In this document: piece by piece, positions 1,858-36,046 of the stretch
How the letters are laid out: every line of letters begins with the position of its first letter
Position numbering within the stretch: the stretch's first letter is position 1
IMG/VR virus record: IMGVR_UViG_3300034066_000615
Location: 1-37,532 of that record
Length of the DNA: 37,532 nt
Reading direction: 5' to 3' (one strand)
Source: a virus
Notes under the pieces: generated by a model
The model's input: only the letters and a program-made list of their open reading frames with translations
What the model was told of the DNA's origin: nothing
Databases searched by the model: none
Translations under genes and position numbers: made by a program

Positions 1858-4800
1858 CTATTCCTCGACACTCACAATGGACACCCTCTGGCTGTTGTCG
1901 CCAGTACCGAAAGCTGTGGAGCGCGCAGTAATCGCTGCGCGGTAGGTGCGATCCGAGAGGCTTGCGTCGCTGTCGGTATAGGTCGCGGAGCCGCTCATGT
2001 TTTGCGTCCAGTACCGCGCGTACACTCCGCCCGGATACGGCTCGCCGTCCGTTTCGTAAGACCAGGTTCCGCTGACGTTGAGCGTCGCGACTTCGGTCTC
2101 CGAGCCCGAGCCGATCTTCCGGTAGAGCTTGACTGTCGCCGAGATCGAGCCGCTCGAGCTGCCGGTCGAGGAGCCTTGGAACTCGGTCCAGTTGCCGCTG
2201 TAGGCATAGCTGACCGTGACGACCTTCGGGTCTCCGTTGGTGCCGAACGGTCCGATGACGATCTGCGCTGTAGCCGATAGGTCGCTCGTTTCTCCGCGAT
2301 TCGTGAGGGTGCCCGCCGAGAGTGTTCCGCCGAAATAGGCGGAGCCGTTCGTCTTGAGGTAATAGACCGCGTTCGCTTCGGTGCAGCTCGAGAGGCTTGC
2401 GAAGTACGGCCCGTACCATTCGATGAACTGCGAGGAGCTTCCGAACGGCGCGCCGGTGACCTTCATATAGGAGCCGGTCGTCGTGATCGTGCGGCCGTTA
2501 GTGACATCGACGCGGAAGCTGTCCGCGGAGTTGCGGATCGTGCCTGCGGTGAGCGTTCCGATGTTTGCCGTGATGCTCGAGAGATTGGAGACGTCGATCT
2601 TTCCGGCGGTGACTGCTCCCGCGAAGATCTTGTCTGTCGTGACGGCGCCCGCGTACAGCTTGGCCGTCGTGATCGCCTCGTCGCTGATCTGCGTCGAGAT
2701 GATCTGCCCGGTGAGATCGTCGGTCGGAACTGCGGTCGTCCAGGCGGAGCCGGTGTAGCGGTACAGTTTCGAGTTCGTCGTAAGGAAAACCATCCGACCG
2801 GCGAAAAGGTTCGTCGACGGGAGGGAGCTGACGATCTCGTAGCCGATTTTATTCTTTGAGACCGTAAAGACTGCGCTGTAGGTGACGCCACCGTAGACCG
2901 CAGAGAGCGTCAGGGTGCCGACGTCGGCCGATAGTGCCGTGATGCGGTAGTAGCCCTTCGGCTGTCCAGAGACCGGCGAGTTCGTCGCTGTGTTGATCGT
3001 GCCGGTGACGCCAGAGCCCGCAGTCGCCGAAAGGGTTGCGGATGCGGTGACGTCTGTCGCGCCCTGGTAAACCTTCAGGATACCGTCGGCGCCAGAGAAG
3101 CTCGGGACGGAGCCGTCCGCATAGGCGAGAATCTGGAACGCGCTCTTCGAGATCTGAATGTTGACCGCGTCGGTGCCGTTTGTGCCGTTGGTGCCGTTGG
3201 TGCCATTCGCCCCAGGAGCGCCGTCCTGCGCGATCAGCGCCGGAGAGCTCCATTCCGAATTCGCGATCGAGTCGGTGCTCGAGGTTGAGGCCGCGGTCGC
3301 CTGGATTGACCATAGATAGCCGCCGCCAGAGGTCGGCACCTCGCGCGTCCATCCGCTCGGCTGTCCGGAAACGGCGCCGGTGGAAAAGGTGTAAGTCGTT
3401 GAGCCCACGCTCGAGACACTTGGCGTCGAGCTGCTCGAGGTTCTCTGATAGAGAAAAACGGTAGCGGAGTTGATGCCGTTTGTGCCGTTGACACCGTTAG
3501 CACCGTTAGCGCCGTTTTGCGCCAGAAGTACCGGCCCGCCCCATTCGTTCGATGCGATCGTATCAGTCGAGGATGCGGAAACGGCCGACGCGATGATGAC
3601 GTAGAGCGGGTCGGTGCCGCTCGGTATCGTCTTTGACCATCCGTTCGCAAGCGATGCAGTCGAGATAGTGCCGGTCGTAAAGTCGAACGTCACCGTCCCT
3701 GGATTGTCGCCAGGCGCCGATGAGCTGCGCTTGTAGGCATAGACCTGGGCGACGTTGTTTCCGCTTGTGCCATTGATGCCGTTCGTGCCGTTGATGCCGT
3801 TCGTGCCCGCGTTGCCCTGGCGCGCCTTCGTGACAGAGAACACCTTGTCGACCGAGTAGCTGCCCGCATACGTCGCTCGGAAGGCGACCGAGCCGGTATC
3901 GGCGGACATCGCGCTCACCGAGTACGCGCCGGTCGAGGCGTTGATCGAGGCGGTGACGTTGGTCTGCCCCAGGATCGAGAACGTGCAGGAGCTCGAGACG
4001 TCGGTCGTGCCGACGAAGACCTTGAAGTCGCCGACCGCTGTCGCGAACGAGCTGACGACGCCCTCGGAGTTCGCCGGGACGGTGACCGCTTCGTTCGTGA
4101 GGTAGCCGATCAGGGTCGGCGGTTTCGCGGCGATCGTCACCGAGCTCGAGGTCGAGTTCGGATACCAGTCCGACCGGACGCGCCCGCTGCGAGTCCTGAT
4201 CCAGTAGTAGCGCGCGGAGGTGTCGTTCGTAACGTGCTGAAAGTCCGACGCGCGGCCGTCGAAGATCTTTGTCGCGGTGCCGCGATCGTTTGCGGTCGAT
4301 GCAAATAGCTCGATCGAGTCGTAGGAGGCGGGATCGTTCGGAAGCGTCCAGGCGATGAGCGCGAAGCCATCCTGGGCGCTCGCGGTGAGCGAGCTGATCG
4401 CGGGAGGCTTGGCGTCCTGGTCGGCCGTTGCGGTCTCTGGCGCCGGGATGAACTGGATGCGAAGAGCCGATCCTGCGAGCGAGCGTCCGGAGATCACGGC
4501 CGGGTCGGGATAGCCCGCCCAGGGGTCTTCGTTGTCGCTGTAGCGGTGCGCGCCTTCGTTGTCGAGGAAGGTCTTCGCAGGAGGAGTCGGGACCGAGCCG
4601 GTGCTCGCCAGGAAGCGATTCGTCAGATCCGGCGCGCTGACGTTCGAGCCATCGAGTAGCAAGAGGAACGAACCAGGGCCGCCCGCGCCACCTGGGCCCG
4701 GATAGTATTGATTCCCGCCGCCGGTCGTATGCTTTGGAGTCTCGCTCGAGCTGTTGCCATCGAGGCGAATCGTCGCGGAGACGCCCGTCGTGAAGCCGCG

Positions 4801-6963
4801 CGAGATCGTGAGGAGCCCTGCTCCGCCTGCTGCACCCGAGCCACCGTTCGCGCGCTTGTCGGCCTTGCCGCCCGAGGTGATCTTGCCGCCAGGACCGCCG
4901 CCGGTGCCGCGCAAGTCGGTCGGGAGGCCGGTGATCGAGTTCCCGCTGACAGCGATCTCGAGGTACGGGAAGCTCGCGTGTTTGCCCTGGGTAACCGGGA
5001 CAGGCGTCGTGACGAGGCGCGCGTTGCCGTCGCTGTAGTCCTGTTGCGCGTCAATGCCATCCCATCCGCGCGAGTTGCCGACCCATCCGGGGTTCCCGTA
5101 GATGATCGCCTTCGGGTCGTTGTTGTCGGCGACGCCTGCCAGGCCTCCGCCGGTGCCGTTGATCACTCCGTTGATCGTGAGGTAGCCCTTCACGCGGAGC
5201 TGTACGTTGCCGGAGATGTTGAGCGTCGTTCCCTGCGGGATCGTGAGGTCGCCGTTGTGATACCAGATCGAGCCCGAGGCCGTGATGTCCGAGCCGCCTG
5301 CGAGCGTATAGGTGCCGGTCGCCATCACGCCCGCGGTGATCGTTGCGACGCTCGAGAGCGCCGTTCCGGTTGCGGTGTAGAAGGCGTCCGGGAGCGCGGT
5401 CGTCGCTGTCGTCGGCGAGAGCGCGGAGGCCGGGGACGTCGAGCCGAAGAGCTCGAGGTTGACCTGTCCGGTGCGGTGGTTGACGGAGATATTCTGGATC
5501 TCGAACGCGCGGTCAATGCTCGAGCCGGTGCCCGCGTAGTCGCGGACGCTCGCGTATTTGACGCGAACGACATCGCCGACCTCGAGCTTGTTCAAAGAAT
5601 GGACGACGGTGACGGACATCCGCTCCGGCGGTGAGGCGTAGCGATCGCGCAGGGAATCGACGAGCTGAAAGAGGAGCGAGTCGGTCGCGCGTCCGCCGTA
5701 GAGTCCCTTGAACTTCAGATCGAGAGGGTCCGCGCGGCCGTGAATAGCGACGGATGTCGCGTCGATCAGCGAGGTCGTGCGGGAGTAGTCGGAGCCGGTC
5801 CAGTTCCAGGAAATCCGGAAGACGTTGTGGACATCTTCCATGTCGTGCGTGAGTTCGCCGATCTGGATCGAGTTCGACTCGTCGAGCGTTGCGACGGTTG
5901 CCGAGTCCGAGAGAACGCGCGCGGCTCGCTTGAGACCGAGAGCGCCGTCGGCGTAAACCGGCATAAACATACCGAGGAGACGACAGATCTCCTCCTCGAG
6001 GAACTTCTTCCCGTCGGTTTTTTTGATGCCCTCGAATCGGATGACGACGCCACCGTTCGCACCGTCCCACATATCGGAGCCGATGCCCGTGAAGTCGGCG
6101 AGACGGATCAAAGAGGAACTGATCCCGAGGTGCCAGGTTGACGGGAGGGAGGCGGAATCGCCGTAGAGAGTGCCGGTGAGGATGGCATAGGCGAGCTTGA
6201 CGGCCGGGAGCTCGAGATAAACGTGCTCCGTCACCTTTTCGCGACGCGCGGCCGGTGTTGCAGCGTCGACGTCATACTTGCTCGCGATCGTTCCTAGGAC
6301 GCCACGAGTGCATCCGGTGAAGGTTGTCGCGGTCTTGCCGGTGTAGCGGATGACCTCGTCGCGGATCTTGATGTAGCCGACGGTCGAGTTCGCGGCGTCC
6401 GAGTAGCTCGAGCCGTGATAGACGGTCGAGAAGCCGCTCGTCGAGGTGACGTAGACGGTCGTGTCCGTCGCGCTCAAAGACTGCGCGAGGTTTGTCTCGG
6501 CGAGATCAAAGATGTCCTTCTTCGCGGAGCGTTGAACGTCCGCGCAGGAGATCGAGTAGCGCCCGCGGTCGTAGGTCGCCTGCGTGACTTGTTGCGTCCC
6601 GACCATGACGAAGTCGGAGAACGCGAGCCCGGCGTAGCCCAGGTAAAAGCGAACCTGGCGCTGACGAAGTCCGACGTCGTCGTTCAGTCGTTCGCGGATC
6701 TCGGTCGTGAAGTCGGCGCCGACATCGACGACGGAGAACGAGGCGGAGCCGATCTCGCTGCGCCCTTCGATCGGGTTCAATCGTTGCGAGACGATCGACG
6801 GCTCCTGGAGCGCGCCATCGAGGACCGTCCCAGGGATGCCCGCGATCCCGGTGTGCGAGGTGATGTAGATCGAGTCGACCGGATATTCGATTTTAACGAC
6901 GAACCTCGGCTCCTTGACCGAGGAAGTATTGAGAACGTCGAAGACTTCGCCGTCGGTACGCAT
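1858..6963 (-). CDS. Tail-tip / central fibre protein (host-recognition hub)
   Basis: 1701 residues, the largest gene. The N-terminal third or so looks like a tail-tip hub protein (YIKIRDEVIRYTG, NVFRISWNWTGSDY, VNLELFG) of the kind that closes the tail tube. A Gly-rich beta-rich stretch (about 590-790), a fibronectin type III-like domain (about 850-940), and three collagen-like Gly-X-Y stretches rich in GTNG and GANG follow, separating two related modules of about 90 residues. The C-terminal part (SDEAITTAKLYAGAVTTDKI) resembles the trimerising region of lambda J-like tip proteins (DUF1983-like), followed by a beta-rich end. It sits after the tape measure and a minor tail gene as expected, and its start overlaps the upstream stop (TGATG). 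It probably forms the trimeric tip that touches the host surface. Confidence 0.8.
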   Translation of the reverse strand: MRTDGEVFDVLNTSSVKEPRFVVKIEYPVDSIYITSHTGIAGIPGTVLDGALQEPSIVSQRLNPIEGRSEIGSASFSVVDVGADFTTEIRERLNDDVGLRQRQVRFYLGYAGLAFSDFVMVGTQQVTQATYDRGRYSISCADVQRSAKKDIFDLAETNLAQSLSATDTTVYVTSTSGFSTVYHGSSYSDAANSTVGYIKIRDEVIRYTGKTATTFTGCTRGVLGTIASKYDVDAATPAARREKVTEHVYLELPAVKLAYAILTGTLYGDSASLPSTWHLGISSSLIRLADFTGIGSDMWDGANGGVVIRFEGIKKTDGKKFLEEEICRLLGMFMPVYADGALGLKRAARVLSDSATVATLDESNSIQIGELTHDMEDVHNVFRISWNWTGSDYSRTTSLIDATSVAIHGRADPLDLKFKGLYGGRATDSLLFQLVDSLRDRYASPPERMSVTVVHSLNKLEVGDVVRVKYASVRDYAGTGSSIDRAFEIQNISVNHRTGQVNLELFGSTSPASALSPTTATTALPDAFYTATGTALSSVATITAGVMATGTYTLAGGSDITASGSIWYHNGDLTIPQGTTLNISGNVQLRVKGYLTINGVINGTGGGLAGVADNNDPKAIIYGNPGWVGNSRGWDGIDAQQDYSDGNARLVTTPVPVTQGKHASFPYLEIAVSGNSITGLPTDLRGTGGGPGGKITSGGKADKRANGGSGAAGGAGLLTISRGFTTGVSATIRLDGNSSSETPKHTTGGGNQYYPGPGGAGGPGSFLLLLDGSNVSAPDLTNRFLASTGSVPTPPAKTFLDNEGAHRYSDNEDPWAGYPDPAVISGRSLAGSALRIQFIPAPETATADQDAKPPAISSLTASAQDGFALIAWTLPNDPASYDSIELFASTANDRGTATKIFDGRASDFQHVTNDTSARYYWIRTRSGRVRSDWYPNSTSSSVTIAAKPPTLIGYLTNEAVTVPANSEGVVSSFATAVGDFKVFVGTTDVSSSCTFSILGQTNVTASINASTGAYSVSAMSADTGSVAFRATYAGSYSVDKVFSVTKARQGNAGTNGINGTNGINGTSGNNVAQVYAYKRSSSAPGDNPGTVTFDFTTGTISTASLANGWSKTIPSGTDPLYVIIASAVSASSTDTIASNEWGGPVLLAQNGANGANGVNGTNGINSATVFLYQRTSSSSTPSVSSVGSTTYTFSTGAVSGQPSGWTREVPTSGGGYLWSIQATAASTSSTDSIANSEWSSPALIAQDGAPGANGTNGTNGTNGTDAVNIQISKSAFQILAYADGSVPSFSGADGILKVYQGATDVTASATLSATAGSGVTGTINTATNSPVSGQPKGYYRITALSADVGTLTLSAVYGGVTYSAVFTVSKNKIGYEIVSSLPSTNLFAGRMVFLTTNSKLYRYTGSAWTTAVPTDDLTGQIISTQISDEAITTAKLYAGAVTTDKIFAGAVTAGKIDVSNLSSITANIGTLTAGTIRNSADSFRVDVTNGRTITTTGSYMKVTGAPFGSSSQFIEWYGPYFASLSSCTEANAVYYLKTNGSAYFGGTLSAGTLTNRGETSDLSATAQIVIGPFGTNGDPKVVTVSYAYSGNWTEFQGSSTGSSSGSISATVKLYRKIGSGSETEVATLNVSGTWSYETDGEPYPGGVYARYWTQNMSGSATYTDSDASLSDRTYRAAITARSTAFGTGDNSQRVSIVSVEE

Positions 6964-11216: not shown

Positions 11217-11542
11217 TAGACGAACCTCTCGACGCAGAGGAGCTGAAGCTCGCGGTTCCGCTCGTCGCGATTGATGACCGATTGGATGTCGAAATAGCGA
11301 GAGCCGAACTTGACGCGATCCTTTGGAGTCAGCGTCACGCCCGAGATCGGACGGATGACGATCCGCGTCGACACCTCGCTTTGCATCTGCGCGGCTGCAA
11401 AGTATTCGCGGCCGTTGAGCGGTTCGACGGACGCCCACACCGTACCGAGCGACGCCCAGGTCGGCGTCTGGTCTCCGTACTGGTCGATCGCGTCGGTCGC
11501 CCGCTGAACGGTGACCCGATGTCGAAGACGCCCGGCCTGCAT
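11216..11542 (-). CDS. Head closure / head-tail adaptor protein
   Basis: 108 residues. The opening MQAGRLRHRVTVQR and the pattern TWASVEPLNGREYF, then IRPISGVTLTPKDRV, are hallmarks of the phage head-tail adaptor (SPP1 gp16-like) family, a small beta-barrel that closes the connector. The ATG at 11542 overlaps the upstream stop (TGATG). An in-frame TTG one codon earlier is not needed. Confidence 0.85.
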   Translation of the reverse strand: MQAGRLRHRVTVQRATDAIDQYGDQTPTWASLGTVWASVEPLNGREYFAAAQMQSEVSTRIVIRPISGVTLTPKDRVKFGSRYFDIQSVINRDERNRELQLLCVERFV

Positions 11543-12117
11543 CAAAACACCTTGAACGGCGACAGGAGTGCGGTGAACCCGAGCGGGAACTCGGTGACGA
11601 TCGTCCCGGTGAGAGTCGCTTCGCGGTTCTCGTAGAGGTGCGCGATCATCAGTTTGATCGCCGCCTTGATCGCAGGAGGAACGTCGGTCGGCGCGCCGTA
11701 GCCCGCGACGTAGCGGATGCGGACGTCGTTGATGTAGCCGCGCGAGCTCGGCCAGGTCTCGTTATAGGCTTGGAAGATCTTCCCCGGCTGCGCGAACGGG
11801 CCCGCGTCGTTGACGACCTGGTAGGTGTTCGCCGGTAACGTTTGCGTGTTGCCCTGAATGTCGATGTAGGTGATCGAGGTCACGCTCACGAGCGGCGCCT
11901 TCGGGAGCTGAAAGTAGAGCGGGAACTGGTCGACCTTGAGCTCCCAGGTCGTATTCACGAACGAGCGCCCGGTGTAGGCCTCGGCGTATTCGCGCGCGGC
12001 CTTCGAGAGCGCGAAGAGGATCTCGTCGTCCTGGTTGCCGTCGATGCGGCAATGCGAGCGCGCCTCTTCGACCGTTACCGGCTCACCCGCCGGAGCCGTG
12101 ATCAGGGTGTGGTTCAT
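11542..12117 (-). CDS. Head-tail connector (gp6-like)
   Basis: 191 residues. PVTVEEARSHCRIDGNQDDE followed by AREYAEAYTGRSF is the signature of the phage gp6-like / Phage_connect_1 head-tail connector, a helical adaptor that binds the portal. The C-terminus (AIKLMIAHLYENREA) is also typical. Unusually, it is separated from the capsid gene by about 8 kb of fibre genes. The ATGA overlap with the upstream small protein shows it is in the same operon. Confidence 0.9.
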   Translation of the reverse strand: MNHTLITAPAGEPVTVEEARSHCRIDGNQDDEILFALSKAAREYAEAYTGRSFVNTTWELKVDQFPLYFQLPKAPLVSVTSITYIDIQGNTQTLPANTYQVVNDAGPFAQPGKIFQAYNETWPSSRGYINDVRIRYVAGYGAPTDVPPAIKAAIKLMIAHLYENREATLTGTIVTEFPLGFTALLSPFKVF

Positions 12118-12389
12118 AGCTGTCGCACCTGTACCAGGACCGAGCGGTCCTCGATGCGTCCGCCCGGAGTCGTGACGCGGTTCGTGATGAGATAGTCAGC
12201 TCCGGCCACTCCGCCGGAGAGGAACGCGCGCGTCACGTTCGACGTCACGCCTTCAGAGACGATCGTCAGCGCCGCGGGAACTTCCCAGGCGGAGGTCGTG
12301 ACCGTGTCCCCGTTTAACCAGGGATTCCAGTCGACCTCGAAGTCGATCGTCGAATTCGGGTCTTTCGTGAATGCCGCGATGATCGTCAT
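12114..12389 (-). CDS. Small beta-sandwich structural protein (fibre-tail-adaptor-like)
   Basis: 91 residues. DPNSTIDFEVDWNPWLNGDTVTTSAWEVP followed by ITNRVTTPGGRIEDRS is the pattern of small Ig-like phage structural proteins that often sit just upstream of gp6-like connectors and are sometimes named fibre-tail adaptors. It has no membrane segment. ATGA overlaps on both sides put it between the 20-residue-repeat protein and the connector, so it may attach that fibre to the particle. That role is inference. Confidence 0.6.
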   Translation of the reverse strand: MTIIAAFTKDPNSTIDFEVDWNPWLNGDTVTTSAWEVPAALTIVSEGVTSNVTRAFLSGGVAGADYLITNRVTTPGGRIEDRSVLVQVRQL

Positions 12390-13927
12390 GCAGCGATTCT
12401 CCTGTTGTTGCGTGAGACCTTGATCGCGCGGTTGTCCGCCTCGACCTCGATCGAACTGTCAGCGCTGACCGTGAGCGTCGAGCGCTGCGGAATAACTTCG
12501 CGGCGATCCTGGAACGGAACCTTCAGCTCTCGAGAGTCCGGCGTGAAGGTGCGATTCCGTATCCTTCCGGATACAGTCGCATCGCCCTGCGCGTCGCCAT
12601 CGACGACACCGAACCCGCGCGCCTGTCCGCTGATCTCGGCGCTGCCGTAGACCAGACCCAGGATCGGCCCGCGTCCGTAGATCGTGACGATCGAGCTCGC
12701 CTCGCCCGCCGCGTCGCCGACCTGGCGACCGTAGGCCAGGATTGACGCGGTCGCGCTCGAGGTGCCGCTCTCGTTGCCGTCGACCGCGCCGCGCCCATAG
12801 GCCGGGACATTCGCGACGGTGCTCTCGCCCGAGATCGCGCCCTGGACAATCGAGCGACCGTCGATCGAGGCTGCGACCGTGGCGTCGCCTGCGATCGAGC
12901 CGGAGCCCATCGCGAAGGCGCGCGCCTCGGCGGTTGCCGTCGCCTCCCCTGCGATCGAGCCGTTCGTCCGGCCGAATGCCAGGATGACCGCGCTCGAGCT
13001 CGAGGAGCCGATCGCCGCGCCAGGTGCGGAGATCTTCCGCTGCCCGGAGCCCTCGACCGTTGCCAGGCCTTCGGCGGAGCCGTTGCCGTGGGCGGTCGCC
13101 CGGATCTCGGCGGACACCGAGCTCGAGGAGCTCGAGGAGCCCTCGACCGTAGCGGTCGCCAGGATGTCGCCGGTAGCCGCCGCAGAGCCCGCAGAGGCGG
13201 CGTCCGCCCGACCATAGGCCAGGACATCCCCCGCGATCGTGCTCGCGCCCTGCGCCGCCCCATTTGCGGGGAAGACGCCCTGGATCGCTCCGTCGACCGT
13301 CGAGGTGCCGGACGTTTCGCCGCGGCTCGAGTACCTTGCGGTCCCCGAGGCCGTCGCTGTTGCCGAACCTTCGGCGGAGCCGGAGGCGTTGCCGGTTGCG
13401 AACGCATCGCCCGAGACGGACGAGCTGCCCGCGATCGAAGCGTCGAGTCCGGTGCGCGCCTGGACGTCGGCCGCGACCGTTGCCGTACCCGCCGCCGCGC
13501 CCGCTCCCTCGAGGAGCCCGGAGCCGTCGGCGGTTGCCGTCGAGCTCGAGCTCGAGGAGGCGGAGATCTGTCCCGACGCGAAGACCGCGCCGTTGACAGT
13601 TGCAGATCCCGACGAGCTGCCGCTCGCCGAGCCTGCTGCGATAACTGAACCAGAGACCGCCCCGGTCCCGGCTGCGGAGCCAGTCGCCGGAGCGATTGCT
13701 CGAGAGGTTGCCGACGTCGTCGACGAACCCGTGGAGCTTGCGATCGGACGACCGATCGCGTCGATGTCACCTTCGACCGTTGCCGAGCCGACACTCGCAC
13801 CAGGCGAGGCGATCTTCGGAACGAGCGCGCCGGTGACGGTCGCGGACCCTGCGGCTGTGCCGTACAGCGTATCGCCGACGGCATAGCCGAAGAGCCAGTA
13901 GTCGCTCTGGACGTATAGGCCGCTCAT
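12386..13927 (-). CDS. 513-residue protein of tandem 20-residue Ala/Gly/Ser repeats
   Basis: Starts at ATG 13927 with GGAGG five bases upstream. After about 20 N-terminal residues with aromatics (YWLFGY) almost the whole chain is about 20 copies of a 20-residue unit with the pattern S-A-T-V-x-G-x-I-x-A-x-G-R-x-x-G-x-A-x-G, some units losing or gaining one or two residues. The last 55 residues (RELKVPFQDRREVIPQRSTL) are polar and form shorter RxLxV-like repeats seen near fibre adaptors. Composition is dominated by Ala, Gly, Ser, Thr, with no Cys. The regular spacing of Gly and beta-branched residues suggests a beta-solenoid rod. I know no family that fits. The next gene is fibre-adaptor-like, so a particle-attached spike is the best guess. 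Confidence 0.8.
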   Translation of the reverse strand: MSGLYVQSDYWLFGYAVGDTLYGTAAGSATVTGALVPKIASPGASVGSATVEGDIDAIGRPIASSTGSSTTSATSRAIAPATGSAAGTGAVSGSVIAAGSASGSSSGSATVNGAVFASGQISASSSSSSTATADGSGLLEGAGAAAGTATVAADVQARTGLDASIAGSSSVSGDAFATGNASGSAEGSATATASGTARYSSRGETSGTSTVDGAIQGVFPANGAAQGASTIAGDVLAYGRADAASAGSAAATGDILATATVEGSSSSSSSVSAEIRATAHGNGSAEGLATVEGSGQRKISAPGAAIGSSSSSAVILAFGRTNGSIAGEATATAEARAFAMGSGSIAGDATVAASIDGRSIVQGAISGESTVANVPAYGRGAVDGNESGTSSATASILAYGRQVGDAAGEASSIVTIYGRGPILGLVYGSAEISGQARGFGVVDGDAQGDATVSGRIRNRTFTPDSRELKVPFQDRREVIPQRSTLTVSADSSIEVEADNRAIKVSRNNRRIAA

Positions 13928-14373: not shown

Positions 14374-14835
14374 TTACGGCGCTGTACCGACCTCGAGCTC
14401 GACCGTCCAGTATTTCGTCACACCGTTCGCTGTGACGCTGACCGACCAGTAGGTGAGTCGATAAACAGCCGTACTACGCGACAAGCTGAAAGTAATCGAG
14501 CTCGCCGATCCGCCGTTTGCGACGCTCGCGCTTCCGGCGCTGCCGTTTCGCGTCCAGTTCCAGGTAACCGCAGAGCTCGCCGTGATCGTCGCCGATGTGT
14601 TTGACGAGCCGTAGTTGTAGATCCCGGTCGGATTGCCCGAGTTGGTGCTCCCGTCCGGACTAAACGTCAGCGACGATTTGCCGCGGAGGTTGTCCATTGT
14701 GATGATCGTTCCGCTGCCGCCGACACCCGCAAGGGTTCGGACCGCGGCGTCGTTCATGCTAATCGTCGCCGTCGACGATAGTCCGAGCTCGATGTTGACG
14801 TCCGACAGCGAGATCGTGCCGGTAGGTGTAGGCAT
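14374..14835 (-). CDS. Fibre-associated structural protein with Ig-like domain
   Basis: 153 residues. The start (ISLSDVNIELGLSST, then MNDAAVRTLAGVGGSGTI and MDNLRGKS) is a recurrent N-terminal module of phage virion proteins. The rest is a Ser/Thr/Gly-rich beta-sandwich-like domain (WNWTRNGSAGSASV, YWSVSVTANGVTKYWTVELE). Such proteins are usually surface-exposed and may bind sugars. The start overlaps the upstream stop (TAATG). Confidence 0.6.
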   Translation of the reverse strand: MPTPTGTISLSDVNIELGLSSTATISMNDAAVRTLAGVGGSGTIITMDNLRGKSSLTFSPDGSTNSGNPTGIYNYGSSNTSATITASSAVTWNWTRNGSAGSASVANGGSASSITFSLSRSTAVYRLTYWSVSVTANGVTKYWTVELEVGTAP

Positions 14836-15197
14836 TAGGCCGCGGCGTTAGCCGGTGCTGCGGGAGCTTCCGGCTCCGGCGCCCAGGGAAGAGGCTTCTG
14901 CTCGAGCGCGGCCTTCTCGACTTCCTTCGCGACGACGTAGGCGATGTGCGCCTGGTACGGAGCGAGCTGATCCTCCTGCGACCACACCCAGGCCTCGACC
15001 TCCGCCGCGGTGAGCTGCGAGAAGTCGACGAAATTCTCGGGAGCCGGATCGCCGACGTTGACCGAGAACGGAAGCTCGAAGCTGCACCCGCTATCGGTGC
15101 CCTTCATTGTGACGTCGACTTCTTTGACGACGTTCTGCAATTCGCCGACGTTGTGAACTCGGACCGCGTTGATCTTCAGCGTGTACTCGATAGCCAT
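14835..15197 (-). CDS. Conserved phage structural protein downstream of fibre
   Basis: 120 residues with a clear ribosome site (AGGAGA) before ATG 15197. The first 70 residues (IEYTLKINAVRVHNVGELQNVV, then FELPFSVNVGDP) form a beta-rich domain seen beside fibre genes in many environmental phages. The C-terminus is helical with an Ala/Pro tail. Function unknown. It may help fold or attach the fibre encoded just upstream. Confidence 0.55.
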   Translation of the reverse strand: MAIEYTLKINAVRVHNVGELQNVVKEVDVTMKGTDSGCSFELPFSVNVGDPAPENFVDFSQLTAAEVEAWVWSQEDQLAPYQAHIAYVVAKEVEKAALEQKPLPWAPEPEAPAAPANAAA

Positions 15198-15209
15198 GAC
15201 AAATGTCTC

Positions 15210-18200
15210 CTAGTGAATCCGAGCCTCGAGCTCGGCGACTTTGTTCTGTAGTGCGACGACCTTCTTCGCGAGCTCGATCGCCGACACCATCGCGGCGTTG
15301 CCGTAAGCGACCGAGAGGTCGCCATCGTGCGACTCGATGACCGCCTCGGGTAACACCTCGCGGAGCGACTGCGCCGAGACGCCCGCCTGGGTGATCTCGA
15401 CATCGGTGCGGTCGTATATGCCGCTCTTCACGTTGGCGAGATTGACGAGGAAGCCATCGTCTAGCTTTCGCCAGTTGGCCTTTACTCGTTCGTCAGAGTA
15501 AGCGGTGACGTTGCCGTTAAACACCGCGGTTCCGCTGTTGTTGATCGACGCAACATTGCCAGAATCTACGTTTCGGAATATCCACCCACGGCCCGCGGTG
15601 CTATTCATTGTGAAGTACGTCGCCCAATCGGCGGTTACAGATCCATGTGTGCCGAAATTAGATGTCTGTGCAAAAAAGATTCCGTAGGTTGGCTGATATG
15701 ACGAGCCGCTATAAAGATTGATTCCATATCCGGCGGCGGATGCGTTGTTTACCGTGATACCCGTATTTGCGGTGAGCGACGTCGTGAAAACTGTATTTCC
15801 GGTGACCGTCCCGCCAGAGAGCGGGAGCGCGTAGCTGCTGTAGTTGCTTGAGTTGAGGAAGCGCACCCAGCTCAACCATGTGCCGTCGTACCGCCCTCGC
15901 ATATACAGCTCGTTGCCAGGCGAGCCGTAGGCGATTGCAAGCTGCGTAACGTTCCCGGCTCCCGAGATGCCCGAGTATTCAAAATTAACCGGATGAAAAT
16001 ATAGTGACGCGCCGGGGCCGTTGCTATGCGTTCCGTAGAGCAGCGTGTATCCGGTGCCTGGTCTAGTGTTGGAAACGTGGTTCCAGTCGGCGGTGCCGCC
16101 AGTCTCGACCGTTGAGAAGAGCCACTTCGCAAATGCTGTCGAGGCGGGCACAGTTGTTGCGCTCGACTTATCTGCGGTTGTAGCCGATCCCGCGTTGCCG
16201 GTTATGTTGATGCCCCACGTTCCGCTCGCGCCGCTGCCGGTGAGCGATGGCGAATAGCTCGTGTAGTTACCGGCGTGTAGAACTTGGTTTCCGCTTTGCT
16301 GCAAGGCAACCGAGAAATTTGCCGAGCTTGTGGTAAGCGTGAAACGAGTAACATCACCAGTCGCGTCGTATATTGAAATACCGCCACTAGCGCTTGAAAA
16401 GAGCGTCCACTTCCTGCCGGAGCCGCCTGTCGCGTGTAAATACAACGCGGCGGCATTGCTGTTTGCAATGTAAAGCGTTCGCTCTGTTCCCGAGATGCTG
16501 TTAAACCCGGTAAAGCCGGAGCCGATACCGACATCGCCAGTTATCGTGCCACCGCTTAAGGGTAGCGCGTAGCTTGTGTAGTTTCCGCTGTGTAGCATTC
16601 GCCATCGAGACGAACCTACCGACCAACCAGTCCAGACTAAATCGTTCTCTGCGCCGCCAAGGCCGAAATATCCCGCGTAGTCATTAGAGATGTGGAACGT
16701 CATCATCGCATCGCCTGCCGATGCGTTGAAAACTGTCAGGCCGATATTTCCCGAAGCGCCGTTGTATGTTTGCCCGCTTGGCGTGTTGAATACTTTGGTT
16801 CCCGAAATATCGGAGCTGCCAGACGTATAAACGCCATTGGAAACGGTTGCGGCGTTCCCGGTGATGTTGATACCCCAGGTGCCTGACGCGCCGCTCCCTG
16901 TGAGCGTCGGCGCGTATGTGGTGAAATTTTCGCTGTGCAGCGATTGCCGAATTACCGAGGAGATATTTACCTGCTTCGCGGTTGTCGGCTTTGCTTCGTT
17001 CGTAATGCTCGTGACGCGGTTTGTCTCGTCGCCGTAGGCCGCGTATACCTTGACGGTGAAGCCGTTCCAATAGGATTGATACGGCCACCAGAAACAAAGA
17101 TTGCCGCCGTTATTTATCGCGACGAGGCCGGAGATGTTTGATCCGTTCGATATGCCGCCATGATTGATGATCGTGTCGTTGTAGATGTATCCCTGCACCT
17201 GGATGTCCCAGGGGATAAGCTGCCCGTAACTGTTGCCGGTAATTTCCAAGACGAACGGATCGCCGTTAGTCGCGGCATAGTTGATATTAGTCGTCACGAG
17301 CGTTCCGTTAGGAAAGTCTCTCATCGACTGAATAGGATCAGTTGATGCCGAGGCGGCGTTGCCCGTGATGTTGATCGCCCATGTCCCGGTCGCGTTTGCG
17401 CCAGTCAAAGATGGCGCATAGCTGTTGTAGTTGCCCGCGTGGATGGCGACATTTCCGCCCTTAATGTAAACCTCGCTCGTACCTCTTACGCCTAGGTATA
17501 AAGCTCCGGTAACACCGAGAGCGCCTGCGTTTATTTCATTTCCGTAGAAGGAAACACCGCCGCTGTAGTTGGCTTGGAGTCCACCGTTTGCGCCCGAGAA
17601 GTACGTCGTGCCGCTTAACGTGCCGCCGCTCAATGGGAGCGCGTAGCTGCTGTAGTTAGCGCTATCAAGTAATGCGCGCCACGAAGACCAACTGCTGTTA
17701 TATGCGCGAGCGTAGCTCTGGCCGGTCTGAAAATGGGTTGCAAACTGCCCAACTACATTTGACTCGTTGCCGTAAGTTAAGACCGCGTAGTAAGTATCGG
17801 TTGGGTTGTTCGCGTTAGGCTCTAACCGATACGCGCTGCTTGTGAATAGGGAGTTCGGATTTGAGATTCCCGTCGTGCTGCGGAGCATGAACCCGGAAAA
17901 AGACGAGGTGATATACCCGCTCGGATTCGTCGCGTTGTACGGCGTAAACCCGAGCGCAGTGGTGACGTTGCTCGAAGTGATCTCGCCGCGGATCGTCGCG
18001 GAGCTTTTGTTCTCGACGTTGCCGAGGCCGACGTCGCTCGAGGTGAGCGTGACGGCGCCGGTGCGACCGGCGACGGAGGTGACCGCGTCGGTGAAGGACA
18101 TCACGCCCGTCGAGCTGTTGTAGCTCAACGAACCCGAGGCGGAGATAGAGGCGCGAGCTCGAGCCTGGGTGAAGTAGAGATTCGTCGATCCTTCGGCGAG

Positions 18201-18539
18201 CGAGTCGGTCGAACCCGGCGAGGCGCTGATCTCGATATAGCTCGAGCCCGCCCATCGGTAGGTTTTATTCGTGTCGACCGTGACGTAGATCTTGCCCGTC
18301 TCGCCCGTACCAGGGAGCGACGCAAAGTTCGCGACCTCGACAACATCGTCCACATAGGACGGAAGCTGCGCGGACGGAACCTTCCCGGCGGCATCGAGCG
18401 AGGCGTAGCCATTGGCGATGCCCTTGTTCGATGCGACCTCCTTCTGCCCGAGCTCCGTATTGAGCCCGGTGAAGTTGTCGTCGACTTCCTGGTGAGTAAG
18501 AGCGGAGCCCTTACCGGCGCGAGTCGTGATCGTTGCCAC
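15210..18539 (-). CDS. Long fibre with C-terminal S74 intramolecular chaperone
   Basis: 1109 residues from GTG 18539 (GAGGAA ten bases upstream). The N-terminus (ITTRAGKGSALTHQEVDDNF) is a common virion-attachment module. The middle is built of repeated beta-rich segments, with units such as SYALPLSGGT and SGASGTWGINITGNA recurring four or more times. The last 100 residues (DERVKANWRKLDDGFL, ending in a helix KKVVALQNKVAELEARI) are a peptidase S74 / endosialidase-type chaperone that trimerises the fibre and then cuts itself off. It is probably the main receptor-binding protein. The central DNA (about 15500-18000) has lower GC than its surroundings and no CTCGAG sites, a sign of separate origin. 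Confidence 0.85.
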   Translation of the reverse strand: MATITTRAGKGSALTHQEVDDNFTGLNTELGQKEVASNKGIANGYASLDAAGKVPSAQLPSYVDDVVEVANFASLPGTGETGKIYVTVDTNKTYRWAGSSYIEISASPGSTDSLAEGSTNLYFTQARARASISASGSLSYNSSTGVMSFTDAVTSVAGRTGAVTLTSSDVGLGNVENKSSATIRGEITSSNVTTALGFTPYNATNPSGYITSSFSGFMLRSTTGISNPNSLFTSSAYRLEPNANNPTDTYYAVLTYGNESNVVGQFATHFQTGQSYARAYNSSWSSWRALLDSANYSSYALPLSGGTLSGTTYFSGANGGLQANYSGGVSFYGNEINAGALGVTGALYLGVRGTSEVYIKGGNVAIHAGNYNSYAPSLTGANATGTWAINITGNAASASTDPIQSMRDFPNGTLVTTNINYAATNGDPFVLEITGNSYGQLIPWDIQVQGYIYNDTIINHGGISNGSNISGLVAINNGGNLCFWWPYQSYWNGFTVKVYAAYGDETNRVTSITNEAKPTTAKQVNISSVIRQSLHSENFTTYAPTLTGSGASGTWGINITGNAATVSNGVYTSGSSDISGTKVFNTPSGQTYNGASGNIGLTVFNASAGDAMMTFHISNDYAGYFGLGGAENDLVWTGWSVGSSRWRMLHSGNYTSYALPLSGGTITGDVGIGSGFTGFNSISGTERTLYIANSNAAALYLHATGGSGRKWTLFSSASGGISIYDATGDVTRFTLTTSSANFSVALQQSGNQVLHAGNYTSYSPSLTGSGASGTWGINITGNAGSATTADKSSATTVPASTAFAKWLFSTVETGGTADWNHVSNTRPGTGYTLLYGTHSNGPGASLYFHPVNFEYSGISGAGNVTQLAIAYGSPGNELYMRGRYDGTWLSWVRFLNSSNYSSYALPLSGGTVTGNTVFTTSLTANTGITVNNASAAGYGINLYSGSSYQPTYGIFFAQTSNFGTHGSVTADWATYFTMNSTAGRGWIFRNVDSGNVASINNSGTAVFNGNVTAYSDERVKANWRKLDDGFLVNLANVKSGIYDRTDVEITQAGVSAQSLREVLPEAVIESHDGDLSVAYGNAAMVSAIELAKKVVALQNKVAELEARIH

Positions 18540-18545
18540 GTTCGA

Positions 18546-18977
18546 TTATTCCTCGGAGATCGTCAGGGTGCTCGAGGCGAATTCCGGGATGATCAAGTTC
18601 GACACAGCGAGCGACGCGGTGAGCTCGCCCTTGTAGAGGATCTTCCCTGCGCCGCTCGAGGCGGTGCCGACCGCGAAATGGGAGATCGTGTTCGAGCCCC
18701 CGGTGCATTGCGGGAAGGTGATCGCGGAGGCGTTCGTGACGGAGTTGTTCGTCACGGTCCATCCGCTAGAGGTGCGCGCGACGGCGACGCGAGCGTAGCC
18801 GGTGTAGCTCGCCTCGCTCGTCGTCTGATCGCCTGCTTCGCCAGGATCGGCGGTGTGCAGCGAGACGTAGAGGTTCGTGTTCGGCGAGCTCGCCGCGTTG
18901 TCTGCCAGGTTAGCGATCGCCGTACCCTGGAAGAACAGTTTCATCAGGTCATTTTCGAATGTGTTGCCCTTTGACAT
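18546..18977 (-). CDS. Virion protein preceding the fibre (fibre-attachment family)
   Basis: 143 residues with AGGAGA before ATG 18977. The sequence (GNTFENDLMKLFFQGTAIANL, SLHTADPGEAGDQTTSEASYTGYARVAV, a GGSNTISHFAVG turn) belongs to a widespread family of small phage proteins found beside fibre genes and usually annotated as tail-fibre or head-decoration proteins. It is soluble and beta-rich. Its exact place on the particle is not clear, and here it lies on the capsid side of the connectors. Confidence 0.65.
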   Translation of the reverse strand: MSKGNTFENDLMKLFFQGTAIANLADNAASSPNTNLYVSLHTADPGEAGDQTTSEASYTGYARVAVARTSSGWTVTNNSVTNASAITFPQCTGGSNTISHFAVGTASSGAGKILYKGELTASLAVSNLIIPEFASSTLTISEE

Positions 18978-18988
18978 TTTTCAGTCTC

Positions 18989-19573
18989 CTAGACTGTCCA
19001 GTTGACATCCCGCGGCCTCGGGACACCGTGAAAACAAACGACGCGCTCTTCGCCAGGCCATCGAGCGCCAAACTTTCGCGAGACGATCTGTCTCGGGAAT
19101 AACTCCTGGAGGCGGTCCGGCTCGAGGCCGACCGTCTCCGAGATCCAGGCCTGGTCGCCCCATCGGGTCGGCTCCAGGTAATCCGCAGCGCGCTCCTCGC
19201 TGAACTCGAGCGCGATGTGTGAGAAGTCTCCGCACCAGGCCATCACGCCCGACGCGCAGCTCGACGGCCGACCGAAGTCGGAGAGCATCGAGAACTTGTG
19301 CGGGTAGTCCGCGATGTCGTCGATCGAGCCGACGATCACCGTGTCGAGGTCGAAGTACAGCGTCGGCCCGGTGAACCACTCGAAAAGCTCGAGCTTGGAC
19401 CACCATCCCGACCAGGACCGCAGAATCGGAACCCGCTCGCAGGGAACCTCGACGTCCGCGAGACACACGAATCGGTGCGGAAGCGAGAGATGCTTTGCCA
19501 CACCATCGCGCAGGCGCTCGACGTAGTCGACACCGTAGTCGCCGCCGCTCTTGAGCACACAGGCGACCGTCAG
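18989..19573 (-). CDS. Glycosyltransferase-like protein (DxD type)
   Basis: About 194 residues. A DxD motif in LYFDLDTVIVG, WSGWWSKLELFEW, SGVMAWCGD, WGDQAWI and a final VCFHGVPRPRDV are the hallmarks of a phage-borne nucleotide-sugar glycosyltransferase family resembling GT8. The likely start is CTG at 19573, which overlaps the upstream TGA (CTGA) exactly like the ATGA and GTGA overlaps elsewhere, and puts TVACVLKSGG at the N-terminus where the first beta strand belongs. GTG codons at 19606 or 19561 are alternatives, with no good ribosome site. A 331-residue upstream extension is a shadow. It may glycosylate virion proteins or alter host surface sugar. Confidence 0.75.
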   Translation of the reverse strand: MTVACVLKSGGDYGVDYVERLRDGVAKHLSLPHRFVCLADVEVPCERVPILRSWSGWWSKLELFEWFTGPTLYFDLDTVIVGSIDDIADYPHKFSMLSDFGRPSSCASGVMAWCGDFSHIALEFSEERAADYLEPTRWGDQAWISETVGLEPDRLQELFPRQIVSRKFGARWPGEERVVCFHGVPRPRDVNWTV

Positions 19574-20160
19574 AGCACCGCGCGCAGCTCGACTCTCGGA
19601 TAACACTCGAGCGCCGTGTCGCGCGTCGCGTTCAAGATCTCGAGGTTCGGATGTCGTTGCGAGGCCTCGTTGAAGGCCGACGCGAAGAGCTGATAAGGCG
19701 ACGCTTTGTTCAGCGCGCCCGGATGATCCCCGAACCAATGTCTCTTCGCTCCCATCTTCATATCGAAACCGAGGAGAACGATCGGCGAACAGTTCGCCAG
19801 GACGGCAAGGTTCACCGCCTGGAATCCCGAGTTGTCGCCGCGATGTATTCGGCCAGGCTCGAGCGAGAAGCCCTGCCGGTCGACGCTGTCGATGTAGTGC
19901 AGTCGCCACCGCCTTGCGGCTCCGGCGTCCTGCGTTACTCGTAAACCTTTGAAGCTCGGCGCGCCCTGGTGGAGATCCCACCATTCCGGGTCCGCGGCAT
20001 AGAGCACATCGGCCCAGGGTGCGAGCTTGTAGTTGTCGTTGACGACGATCACCGCCGCGCGTTCGCGACAGTAGTCGACGTCCTCTGCGGTAAGACTAGG
20101 CCCGCTCGCGACGACGACGCATGGGCGCCGATACAGTCTCGCGAAAGGGTTCCGGCGCAC
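19570..20160 (-). CDS. MptE / DUF115-like Rossmann protein, possible sugar transferase
   Basis: 196 residues from GTG 20160, just after an in-frame TAG. CVVVASGPSLTAEDVDYC followed by AAVIVVNDNYKLAPWADVLYAADPEWW and IVLLGFDM are the pattern of a Rossmann-like family related to MptE/DUF115 and to some sialyltransferase-like proteins, which use a nucleotide-sugar or nucleotide donor. It overlaps the previous gene by 65 bases and the glycosyltransferase gene by four, so the two enzymes are coupled and probably act in the same sugar modification. The exact reaction cannot be read from sequence. Confidence 0.65.
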   Translation of the reverse strand: MRRNPFARLYRRPCVVVASGPSLTAEDVDYCRERAAVIVVNDNYKLAPWADVLYAADPEWWDLHQGAPSFKGLRVTQDAGAARRWRLHYIDSVDRQGFSLEPGRIHRGDNSGFQAVNLAVLANCSPIVLLGFDMKMGAKRHWFGDHPGALNKASPYQLFASAFNEASQRHPNLEILNATRDTALECYPRVELRAVL

Positions 20161-29863: not shown

Positions 29864-30692
29864 TTGCTCTCTCGAGCCACGCCTGGGCCGCGGCGACGTT
29901 CGTGTCCTGGGCCTTCTTCGCCTTCGACGGCGGGATCGGCCAGGGTTGCGACCAGGGACGATCGGGATCGCCGAAGAACCTCGCCGGGTTCAAGACCATC
30001 CGGTTCGTCGCCTTAACGTGAGCGGCGTACCGCTCGACTCCGGCGCGCAGATCCTCCCAGGACGCCCCGAGCTCGAGGTGCCTGCGGATGTGATGCTCTG
30101 CGCTGATCCAGTCCGTCCGGCCTGCGTGAGGCGGGTATGTCGACTTGATCGCCTCGATGTGTGTGCGATCTTCCGCGTCCGACCGCTGCAATTTTTTTGC
30201 AGCGTCAAACGAAGAGATTACACATGAGGTATCTCTAGGGTTTGAGATAGTCTGGAGTCTGGAGTCTGGAGTCTGGATAGGTTCGCTGTTCGTTGAACGA
30301 TTCGTTGAACGATTCGTTGAACGATTCGTTGAACGATTCGTTCCCTCCTCCGCCGACGAAGCGTTCGCCTTTCGTCGAGCCTCTCGTTGTTCGGTGACGC
30401 GACGATTCGTTTCACGCTGCTCGTTCGCCGCCGCGATCTCTCTCTGCGCGCGCGCGTTGATCCATCCGCCGTCGGTGAGTTGCCAGAATTGCTCGAGCAC
30501 CGATGCAACGGCGTCACGTTCTTCCGGATTGATGGCTCCAACAAGCCTACAAAGTTGGGAGCTATCGGTCGGTAATGGCCGCTCCGTGGCGTAATGAGCA
30601 TCTAAAAGCGAACGATAAGCGCCCCTCTCCGTCAGAGATAAGTGACCTGTGTCACGCTGAAAGTCACCGATGTAGTGCTTGTAAAAGTTCAC
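29850..30692 (-). CDS. Replication initiator-like protein (DUF1376) containing the putative origin
   Basis: 280 residues from GTG 30692, overlapping the Cro-like stop (GTGA). The N-terminal DUF1376 domain (NFYKHYIGDFQRDTGHLSLT, ERGAYRSLLDAHY) is found in phage proteins that start replication. A low-complexity linker with NRST repeated four times separates it from a C-terminal helical domain (ADRNT-type region followed by WEDLRAGVERYAAHVK). The linker is encoded by tandem DNA repeats that look like origin iterons, so the gene would carry its own origin, as lambda O does. Confidence 0.8.
   Translation of the reverse strand: MNFYKHYIGDFQRDTGHLSLTERGAYRSLLDAHYATERPLPTDSSQLCRLVGAINPEERDAVASVLEQFWQLTDGGWINARAQREIAAANEQRETNRRVTEQREARRKANASSAEEGTNRSTNRSTNRSTNRSTNSEPIQTPDSRLQTISNPRDTSCVISSFDAAKKLQRSDAEDRTHIEAIKSTYPPHAGRTDWISAEHHIRRHLELGASWEDLRAGVERYAAHVKATNRMVLNPARFFGDPDRPWSQPWPIPPSKAKKAQDTNVAAAQAWLERANAAG
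30185..30342. repeat. Putative replication origin: iterons, 7-bp repeats, AT-rich stretch and hairpin
   Basis: Four perfect tandem copies of TTCGTTGAACGA plus a half copy (30289-30342), each containing the palindrome TCGTT-G-AACGA. Next to them lie four tandem 7-mers TCTGGAG (30251-30278, last one TCTGGAT), then about 64 bases of roughly 39% GC in an otherwise GC-rich genome, ending in a perfect inverted repeat GCTGCAA-TTTTT-TTGCAGC (30185-30203). Iterons plus an AT-rich region inside an initiator gene is the layout of lambdoid origins. Confidence 0.7.
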
Positions 30693-34450: not shown

Positions 34451-36046
34451 ATGCGCGCCATAATTTACGCCCGTTACTCGACCGAACATCAGACGGAATC
34501 GACGATCCTCGATCAGCTCCGTCGATGCCGCGACTACGCTAAAAATCACGGATTGAAGGTTGCCGCGGAGTACACCGACGAGGGTATCTCCGGCGCTGCG
34601 ATCGGGAATCGACCAGGCGTTCAGAAGGCGCTCGCCGAGCTCGAGCGAGGGGATGTTCTCCTGGTCGTCGACACTACGCGCCTCTCGAGGTCGCAGGATC
34701 TCGCGCCGCTGCTGACCAGGTTGCGCCACCGAGGCATCCGCGTCGTCGGCGTCCTGGACGGTTTTGACTCCGAGAGCCGGACCGCGCGAATGCAGGCGGG
34801 TCTGTCTGGAATTATGAGCGAAGAGTTCCGCGCGCAGATCGCCTCGAGGACACACTCGGCGCTCGATATGAGAGCGCGCCAGGGAAAGGCGACCGGCGGG
34901 AAGTGTTACGGATACTCGAAGGCGGGAGAGATCATCGAGGCGGAGGCCGCGATCGTCCGCGAGGTGTTCGAGCGCGCAGCTCGAGGTGAAGCGATGAAGG
35001 CGATCGCGTCGGATCTGAATCGACGCGGAGTGCCGTCGCCGGGTTCGACCTGGGAGCGGAAGGCGCGCCGATCGGACGGGATGTGGCTCGTCTCGGGGAT
35101 TCACTCGATGCTCGGGAACGATCGCTATATTGGCCGGGTCGTATGGAATCGCTCGATCTGGAGGCGAGATCCGGACACCGGCAAGCGTCAGCGCGTCGAG
35201 CGGCCGGAGTCGGAATGGATCGTCAGCGAAGGCCCGGAGATCATCGAGCTCGAGACCTGGGAGAAAGTTCGCGCCCTGGCACAGCCGAGAAAGTTTCACG
35301 GCGGCACGAAAGGCCGCGGTCCGAAGTACATCCTCTCCGGGATTTTGGTCTGCGGTGAATGTGGCGGGAAGTTGGTCGCGACTGGCGCGAACGGCTCCTG
35401 GTACTACTGCGGAACCCGTCACCAGGGAGGCGACGCGGCTTGCTCGATGGCGATCGGTGCCAGGCGGGACGTCGCGGAGGAGAAGCTCCTCGAGCCGATC
35501 TCGAAACAGCTCCTCTCGAGCGAGGCGGTCGAGTTGGCCGTCGAGATGATCCGGCAATGGCGACGGGATGAACGCACCGAGGCGACGCGCCCGGCGGAGC
35601 TCGAGGAGCTCGATCACCGGATCGCCAGGCTCGAGGCGCAAGTATCCCAGGGGATACTCGATCGGGAAGACATCGCGCCCTCGGTCGCTGCCCTGCTCGA
35701 GCGTCGTCGATCGCTGCTGTCGAAGTCCTGGCGGAAGGCGAGCTCGAGGTCGAACGTCGACCAGGTAGCCGCCGAGGAGGCCTATCGGAAGGCGGTCGCG
35801 AATATGCGGGAGGCTTTGCGGGGTCCGGCGGCTCGTGCTCGAGCTGCGGTTCACGAGCTGCTCGGTGACGTCGTATGTCGTCCCGAGGATGGAGTCCTGG
35901 TAGCCGCTGTGAGTGTGAATACCGCGCCGCTCCTGCGAGCGGCGGGTGTTTCACAAAATGGTAGCGGGGGCACGCTTTGGCATTATGAAAGGGTACCACT
36001 CGCGAAGGGTAGCCCGCCGCTATTTACGAAGCGACTCGCGGCCTAG
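34451..36046 (+). CDS. int: Large serine integrase
   Basis: 531 residues. The catalytic domain has Ser10 in IIYARYSTEHQ and the DTTRLSRSQ region, followed by a recombinase domain (GKCYGYSKAGEI, IASDLNRRGVPSPGSTW), a zinc ribbon (C301, C304, C320, C331) and a long coiled coil (about 380-455) that controls synapsis. It integrates and, with a directionality factor, excises the genome. The last 29 residues after SQN (503-531) look unlike a conserved end and coincide with a possible att core, so integration may replace them. Its 3' end overlaps the convergent Rz1 gene by 27 bases. Confidence 0.93.
   Translation: MRAIIYARYSTEHQTESTILDQLRRCRDYAKNHGLKVAAEYTDEGISGAAIGNRPGVQKALAELERGDVLLVVDTTRLSRSQDLAPLLTRLRHRGIRVVGVLDGFDSESRTARMQAGLSGIMSEEFRAQIASRTHSALDMRARQGKATGGKCYGYSKAGEIIEAEAAIVREVFERAARGEAMKAIASDLNRRGVPSPGSTWERKARRSDGMWLVSGIHSMLGNDRYIGRVVWNRSIWRRDPDTGKRQRVERPESEWIVSEGPEIIELETWEKVRALAQPRKFHGGTKGRGPKYILSGILVCGECGGKLVATGANGSWYYCGTRHQGGDAACSMAIGARRDVAEEKLLEPISKQLLSSEAVELAVEMIRQWRRDERTEATRPAELEELDHRIARLEAQVSQGILDREDIAPSVAALLERRRSLLSKSWRKASSRSNVDQVAAEEAYRKAVANMREALRGPAARARAAVHELLGDVVCRPEDGVLVAAVSVNTAPLLRAAGVSQNGSGGTLWHYERVPLAKGSPPLFTKRLAA
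35959..35972. other. Candidate attP core at the integrase 3' end
   Basis: TGGTAGCGGGGGCA read on the opposite strand is TGCCCCCGCTACCA, whose last 12 bases resemble the 3' acceptor end plus CCA of elongator tRNA-Met genes as I recall them from Alphaproteobacteria. It lies at the codon for residue 503 of the integrase, between the integrase and the end of the late operon, where a prophage map would be expected to open. The match is short and from memory. Confidence 0.4.

Follow-up and report, generated by a model that had tools for sequence, protein, structure and literature searches.

The minus-strand gene at positions 12386..13927 of the window (the whole stretch of viral DNA that was analysed, 37,532 nucleotides) probably encodes the rope in a neck fibre of the beads-on-a-rope type, borne by a temperate siphophage. 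The 513-residue protein would carry beads of the gp80 type, would be anchored by its C-terminus to a gp77-type ring, and would set the length of the fibre by its number of repeats. This role of the repeat gene is explained by its neighbours, as the gene cluster also encodes members of the bead and the adaptor families, and the reading comes close to the "decorated filament on the head or neck" that was suggested by the original prediction.

An open reading frame occupies exactly these positions, begins with ATG and encodes a protein with a 20-residue period. Autocorrelation of residues 26–450 with BLOSUM scores, compared with shuffled sequences, gave z scores of 10.3, 9.4, 12.0 and 9.9 at lags of 20, 40, 60 and 80 residues, and an even/odd alternation of the kind expected of beta strands was seen in the same region. 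By automatic segmentation, residues 40–439 were divided into 20 consecutive units with a spacing of exactly 20 and no gaps, with a total score of 407 compared to a maximum of 254 for shuffled sequences. A further unit at residues 21–39 and a last one at 441–460, the latter preceded by a one-residue slip near residue 378, were recognized by eye and bring the count to 21–22 units. The consensus of the unit is x-A-x-G-S-A-S-G-S-A-T-V-x-G-D-I-x-A-x-G. At the DNA level the predicted 60-base period was also detected (lag 60, z = 6.7 against codon shuffles); Tandem Repeats Finder reported nothing of period 60 in this gene because the repeat copies are too diverged. No comparable period was present in the other large genes of the window (best z 3.6). 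The repeat, which had been described from the outset as about 20 tandem units of 20 residues, is real and informative.

Three parts can be distinguished in the protein, all encoded on the minus strand. The N-terminal cap (13868..13927; residues 1–20, MSGLYVQSDYWLFGYAVGDT) is almost unchanged even where overall identity falls to 36%. It is followed by the repeat array (12548..13867; residues 21–460), with two predicted strands in each unit. The C-terminal anchor (12389..12547; residues 461–513, TPDSRELKVPFQDRREVIP...NNRRIAA) contains the motifs RELKV, STLTV, SIEVE and RAIKV, which correspond to the short RxLxV-type repeats noted earlier at the protein end.

The rope protein is carried by 20 viral contigs at 75–100% identity, over its full 513 residues except in one truncated contig, and by two further viral contigs at 35–37% identity. 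Both ends are conserved among these relatives, with DYWLFGYAVGDT at the start and NNRRxAA at the end. The rope of locus L022 has exactly one 20-residue deletion and one 20-residue insertion, and the rope of locus L023, with 373 residues, is shorter than the 513-residue protein by 140 residues (7 x 20). In all 22 viral loci the rope gene lies directly before a gp77-like gene, and in every relative covering the region it is found between the head and the connector genes. A gp80-like gene is present in close relatives wherever the locus extends far enough upstream; in searches of whole records, gp80 was found in that of L023 and was absent from that of L022, which is a fragment.

The rope gene overlaps the next minus-strand gene (12114..12389) by ATGA, as had been predicted. 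The 91-residue product of the latter belongs to the fibre-tail adaptor family of GP4 gp77 (PF23148; Pfam E = 1.1e-25, PDB 8jou_D E = 2.3e-6), in agreement with the earlier view of a virion-fibre component encoded beside a fibre-adaptor gene. Directly after it lies a head-tail connector gene (Phage_connect_1 / head-tail adaptor Ad1; 11542..12117, minus strand), the product of which is likely the ring near which gp77 sits. The bead gene (18546..18977, minus strand), 4.6 kb upstream of the rope gene, encodes a member of the gp80 family of GP4 fibre I (PF23140; Pfam E = 1e-22, PDB 8jou_a E = 4e-9). In a structural model of modest confidence (pLDDT 52), its top and single significant structural match was again 8jou_a (Foldseek, E = 9e-4).

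In fibre I of GP4, an elongated rope protein reportedly carries five gp80 dimers and is bound to a 15-fold adaptor ring; in this type of system the bead dimers are said to be threaded by the rope, with five fibres on the ring. The window cluster resembles that of GP4, a Ralstonia phage (PDB 8jou), in encoding a PF23140 bead, a PF23148 adaptor beside the rope, and an elongated repeat protein, here with a terminal RxLxV anchor. However, GP4 is a podophage and the window phage a siphophage, and in the window the bead and rope genes are kept apart by the gene of a long S74 fibre and by two others. If one unit holds one bead, the 21–22 units would give a chain much longer than the five beads of GP4, and the rope of the window is most likely longer and differently built than the one seen in the solved phage structure. 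The original statement that no described phage spike is of this type is only partly right, as the cluster encodes the gp80 and gp77 families of a fibre whose structure reportedly has a rope.

In the fibre that we propose, each of about 21 units would be a two-strand segment unable to fold alone, which would supply its strands to a bead of the gp80-family protein, probably a dimer, so that a flexible chain of gp80 copies would form along the rope. The gp77-family adaptor would grip the C-terminal RxLxV segment and, by analogy to GP4, would form a ring that encircles the neck under the capsid, beside the connector. The conserved N-terminus would then be at the far end of the fibre, the cap being a candidate for the distal end itself or for a tip-binding segment. 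Since the window rope has only a 20-residue conserved cap distally, a separately encoded tip protein is likely in the window phage at the place where relatives have an adhesin domain. The length of the fibre would be set by the number of units and would change in steps of exactly one unit. A ratio of one unit to one bead is our guess, and a rather doubtful one; it is loosely supported by BcepMigl gp57, in which seven units were counted, as the adaptors of BcepMigl and GP4 share 66% identity and GP4 has five bead dimers.

No significant match to the rope protein was found in Pfam, PHROGs, NCBIfam or the PDB or by tblastn against cultured phages, and the profile of phrog_19041 was likewise unmatched (no PHROG match at E 0.1). 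One weak match, to Bflower_3 (E = 0.09, 13 of 34 bits), was dropped. The AF2 model of the monomer, for which 13 sequences were used as input, with rows from viral loci, has two strands in each unit, a mean pLDDT of 49.9 and a pTM of 0.39, and Foldseek returned no PDB match below E 0.8. Such a low-confidence model fits, but does not prove, a chain that becomes ordered only when bound. The regular free-standing beta-solenoid rod of the original prediction is not supported by this monomer model. A beta-solenoid or trimeric beta-helical rod, with one 20-residue coil per unit, could serve as the shaft of a neck or tail fibre, in which case gp77 would be the socket and gp80 would have another task, and the exact period, the fixed places of Gly and beta-branched residues, and the two modeled strands per unit are what such a rod would have. 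We nevertheless consider it unlikely, given the low scores and missing structural matches of a model that is of the monomer only, a composition of Ala, Ser and Gly with few large hydrophobic residues to fill a core, and the co-occurrence of gp80 with the repeats.

The plan of bead, rope and adaptor was also found in cultured phages. Nearest to the window is Microcystis phage Mae-JY04, in which the three genes are contiguous (WWT39679-WWT39677). Its gp80 is 57% identical to the bead of the window, and its 625-residue rope-like protein has an N-terminal non-repeat domain, about 15–17 units of the 20-residue pattern of the window, and the anchor. The unit profiles of the two ropes correlate at 0.68 in one rotation compared with 0.31–0.55 in the others, so the register is shared; BLASTP aligned the two at 42% identity over 85 residues (E = 1e-5 for the pair), a value to be read with the low complexity of both in mind. 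Mae-JY04 also shares with the window the gene order and the ATGA overlap with the adaptor, and differs from it in the contiguity of the genes and in the extra domain of about 230 residues. Sphingobium phage Lacusarx has an isolated three-gene cassette just after a tRNA array, encoding a bead, a protein with a LamG-like domain followed by repeats and anchor, and an adaptor.

In Bcep22-like podophages the gene that lies between those of bead and adaptor belongs to phrog_19041, "virion structural protein" (BcepIL02 gp56, BcepMigl gp57). Its products resemble the window rope in their position, in their units of 18–24 residues and in their C-terminal RxLxV array, and differ from it in having 7–11 units of other sequence. 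When the window rope was compared with these ropes by hhalign, the anchor was the sole segment aligned, over only 17 columns, with an E value of 0.013 but a probability of 3.4%; a PDB search with the profile of the Bcep22-like ropes gave no credible chain match. The plan is repeated, with different unit sequences, in Sinorhizobium PBC5, Agrobacterium Atu_ph08, Pseudomonas Itty13, Mycobacterium Archie, Rhodococcus Madraxi and REQ1, and Microcystis JY22. The repeats of different phages could not be aligned beyond the Mae-JY04 type. Inspected by eye, the ropes of many relatives end distally in a domain that looks LamG-like, lyase-like or rich in glycine. Gordonia phage Moosehead gp28 (L032:5273-6781) appears as an inverted rope, with an N-terminal RxLxV anchor, 24-residue repeats and then a C-terminal domain. 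In Pseudanabaena PA-SR01, Citromicrobium RXM and a Manatee Spring phage, gp80 is present with no clear gp77 beside it, and these phages perhaps use other adaptors. The bead and rope-like genes of RXM (L112:1179-3547) are followed by one for a small protein unlike gp77, which may serve the same fibre as an alternative adaptor.

The low model confidence and the Ala/Ser/Gly-rich composition would also suit a disordered low-complexity spacer that tethers a tip to the gp77 ring and binds no beads, its period being a mere trace of duplication. This is improbable, as the phase is held over 20 gap-free units with insertions and deletions in whole units only, the alternation is strand-like, some positions are invariant across relatives, and the other ropes beside gp80 and gp77 keep a similar unit length (18–28 residues) despite their different sequences.

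The association of ropes with gp77 and gp80, on which the bead-carrying fibre in part depends, was also evaluated statistically. In 32 gp77 clusters, open reading frames with a period of 17–30 residues numbered 14 of the 240 within 2.5 kb of gp77 and 4 of the 774 elsewhere (p = 1.5e-6), and at least two of these four are antisense shadows of ropes. A plain count of RxhxV motifs near gp77 showed no significant enrichment (10 of 240 vs 19 of 774, p = 0.12), and a profile of the anchor was therefore needed. Trained on nine ropes of cultured phages only, with the window family left out, this profile ranked gp77-adjacent open reading frames of environmental contigs near the top of all open reading frames and matched the window family at residues 462–480. 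The collection was scanned for gp77 with a narrower alignment, a broad one being too diverse. Among 53 gp77 records, an automatic rule identified a rope in 8 of the 10 with gp80 and in 9 of the 43 lacking it (p = 8e-4, an optimistic value because the rope-negative gp77 records are largely one related group). Anchor arrays were seen by eye in the two gp80-positive records missed by the rule (L057 and L075).

It is highly improbable that the protein is foreign to the virion, such as a repeat protein of the surface or biofilm type whose gene lies by chance in the structural operon, in view of its constant place between head and connector genes, its ATGA overlap with the adaptor and the annotation of its Bcep22-like equivalent, BcepIL02 gp56, as virion-associated, even though mass spectrometry of the Bcep22-like phage JC1 lists the bead and adaptor homologues and not that of the rope (PMC9144972). 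This JC1 result, the 4.6 kb between the bead and rope genes of the window and the failure of repeats from different phages to align also count against the rope reading.

It is quite possible, if short of probable, that modular ropes of this kind are widespread among the podo- and siphophages of Proteobacteria, Actinobacteria and Cyanobacteria and make up a class of their own. Each would consist of a distal adhesin or cap, units of 18–28 residues that each bind a single gp80-type bead, and an RxLxV anchor in the gp77 ring, and the array would serve as a ruler with one unit per bead. Most of the proteins in question are annotated as hypothetical. No paper naming the class was found in the literature searched, which excludes most subscription papers, and within that literature the class appears to be undescribed. 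The long repeat proteins of low complexity that phage structural clusters encode usually remain annotated as hypothetical, and structure prediction fails for them; one case of such a failure was reported by the authors of the study of Alishewanella phage LSH1 (PMC13243795). If ropes fold only when beaded, the combination of a bead gene, a repeat gene with terminal RxLxV motifs and a gp77-like adaptor gene would name three proteins in many phages. Fibre length would then be predictable from the repeat number, and the place of the variable neck-fibre adhesin would be revealed, if the proposal is true.

The LSH1 proteins can be compared with those of the window by description. LSH1 gp35 matches 8JOU gp80 by HHpred, and 8JOU_g was described as a fibril linking the adhesin to the collar, the protein being dimeric (PMC13243795). 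In the same report the end of gp34 is a long beta-helix-like stretch, predicted with low confidence, that runs out into disorder and was left unexplained by the authors; gp36 is Ig-like, and gp34–36 always occur together (PMC13243795). From the published description, we suggest that the gp34 stretch may be a rope. The relevant genes for LSH1-like proteins were not found in the first 50 kb of Slicko01. In Anabaena myophage A-1(L), the pentadecameric neck ring carries five neck fibres built as bead chains; as described, its trimers of gp82, gp81 and gp80 are joined directly and no rope is mentioned, unlike in our model (PMC10966104).

Between the rope and bead genes lie three further minus-strand genes. 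The first (14374..14835) encodes a 153-residue protein with a conserved N-terminal part of about 55 residues and an exchanged C-terminal part, and its product is a candidate for the separate tip adhesin of the rope. It is followed by the genes of a DUF7936 protein (14835..15197) and of the long fibre with a C-terminal S74 chaperone (15210..18539), the middle of which is hypervariable among relatives. Across 14374-18539, the middle of the S74 fibre and the C-terminal part of the 153-residue protein are swapped between otherwise near-identical relatives and the N-termini are kept; the exchanged parts are likely host-range modules. Between the capsid and bead genes (18989-20160) are genes for a glycosyltransferase and a sialyltransferase-like (MptE-like) protein, the products of which might modify virion or fibre proteins; the sialyltransferase-like gene is retained in relatives, and that of the glycosyltransferase is missing from several.

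Elsewhere in the window, a serine-type integrase gene (34451-36046; phrog_95, E = 5e-88, also with a match to DNA invertase) indicates that the phage is probably temperate. Two adjacent perfect short tandem arrays at 30249-30342, AGTCTGG repeated 4 times and TTCGTTGAACGA repeated 4.5 times, the latter with the palindrome GAACGATTCGTTC inside it, may be iterons or operator repeats. A 1701-residue tail protein (1858-6963) has collagen-like GTNGINGTNG stretches, which show up at about 3168-3816 of the DNA as short tandem arrays.
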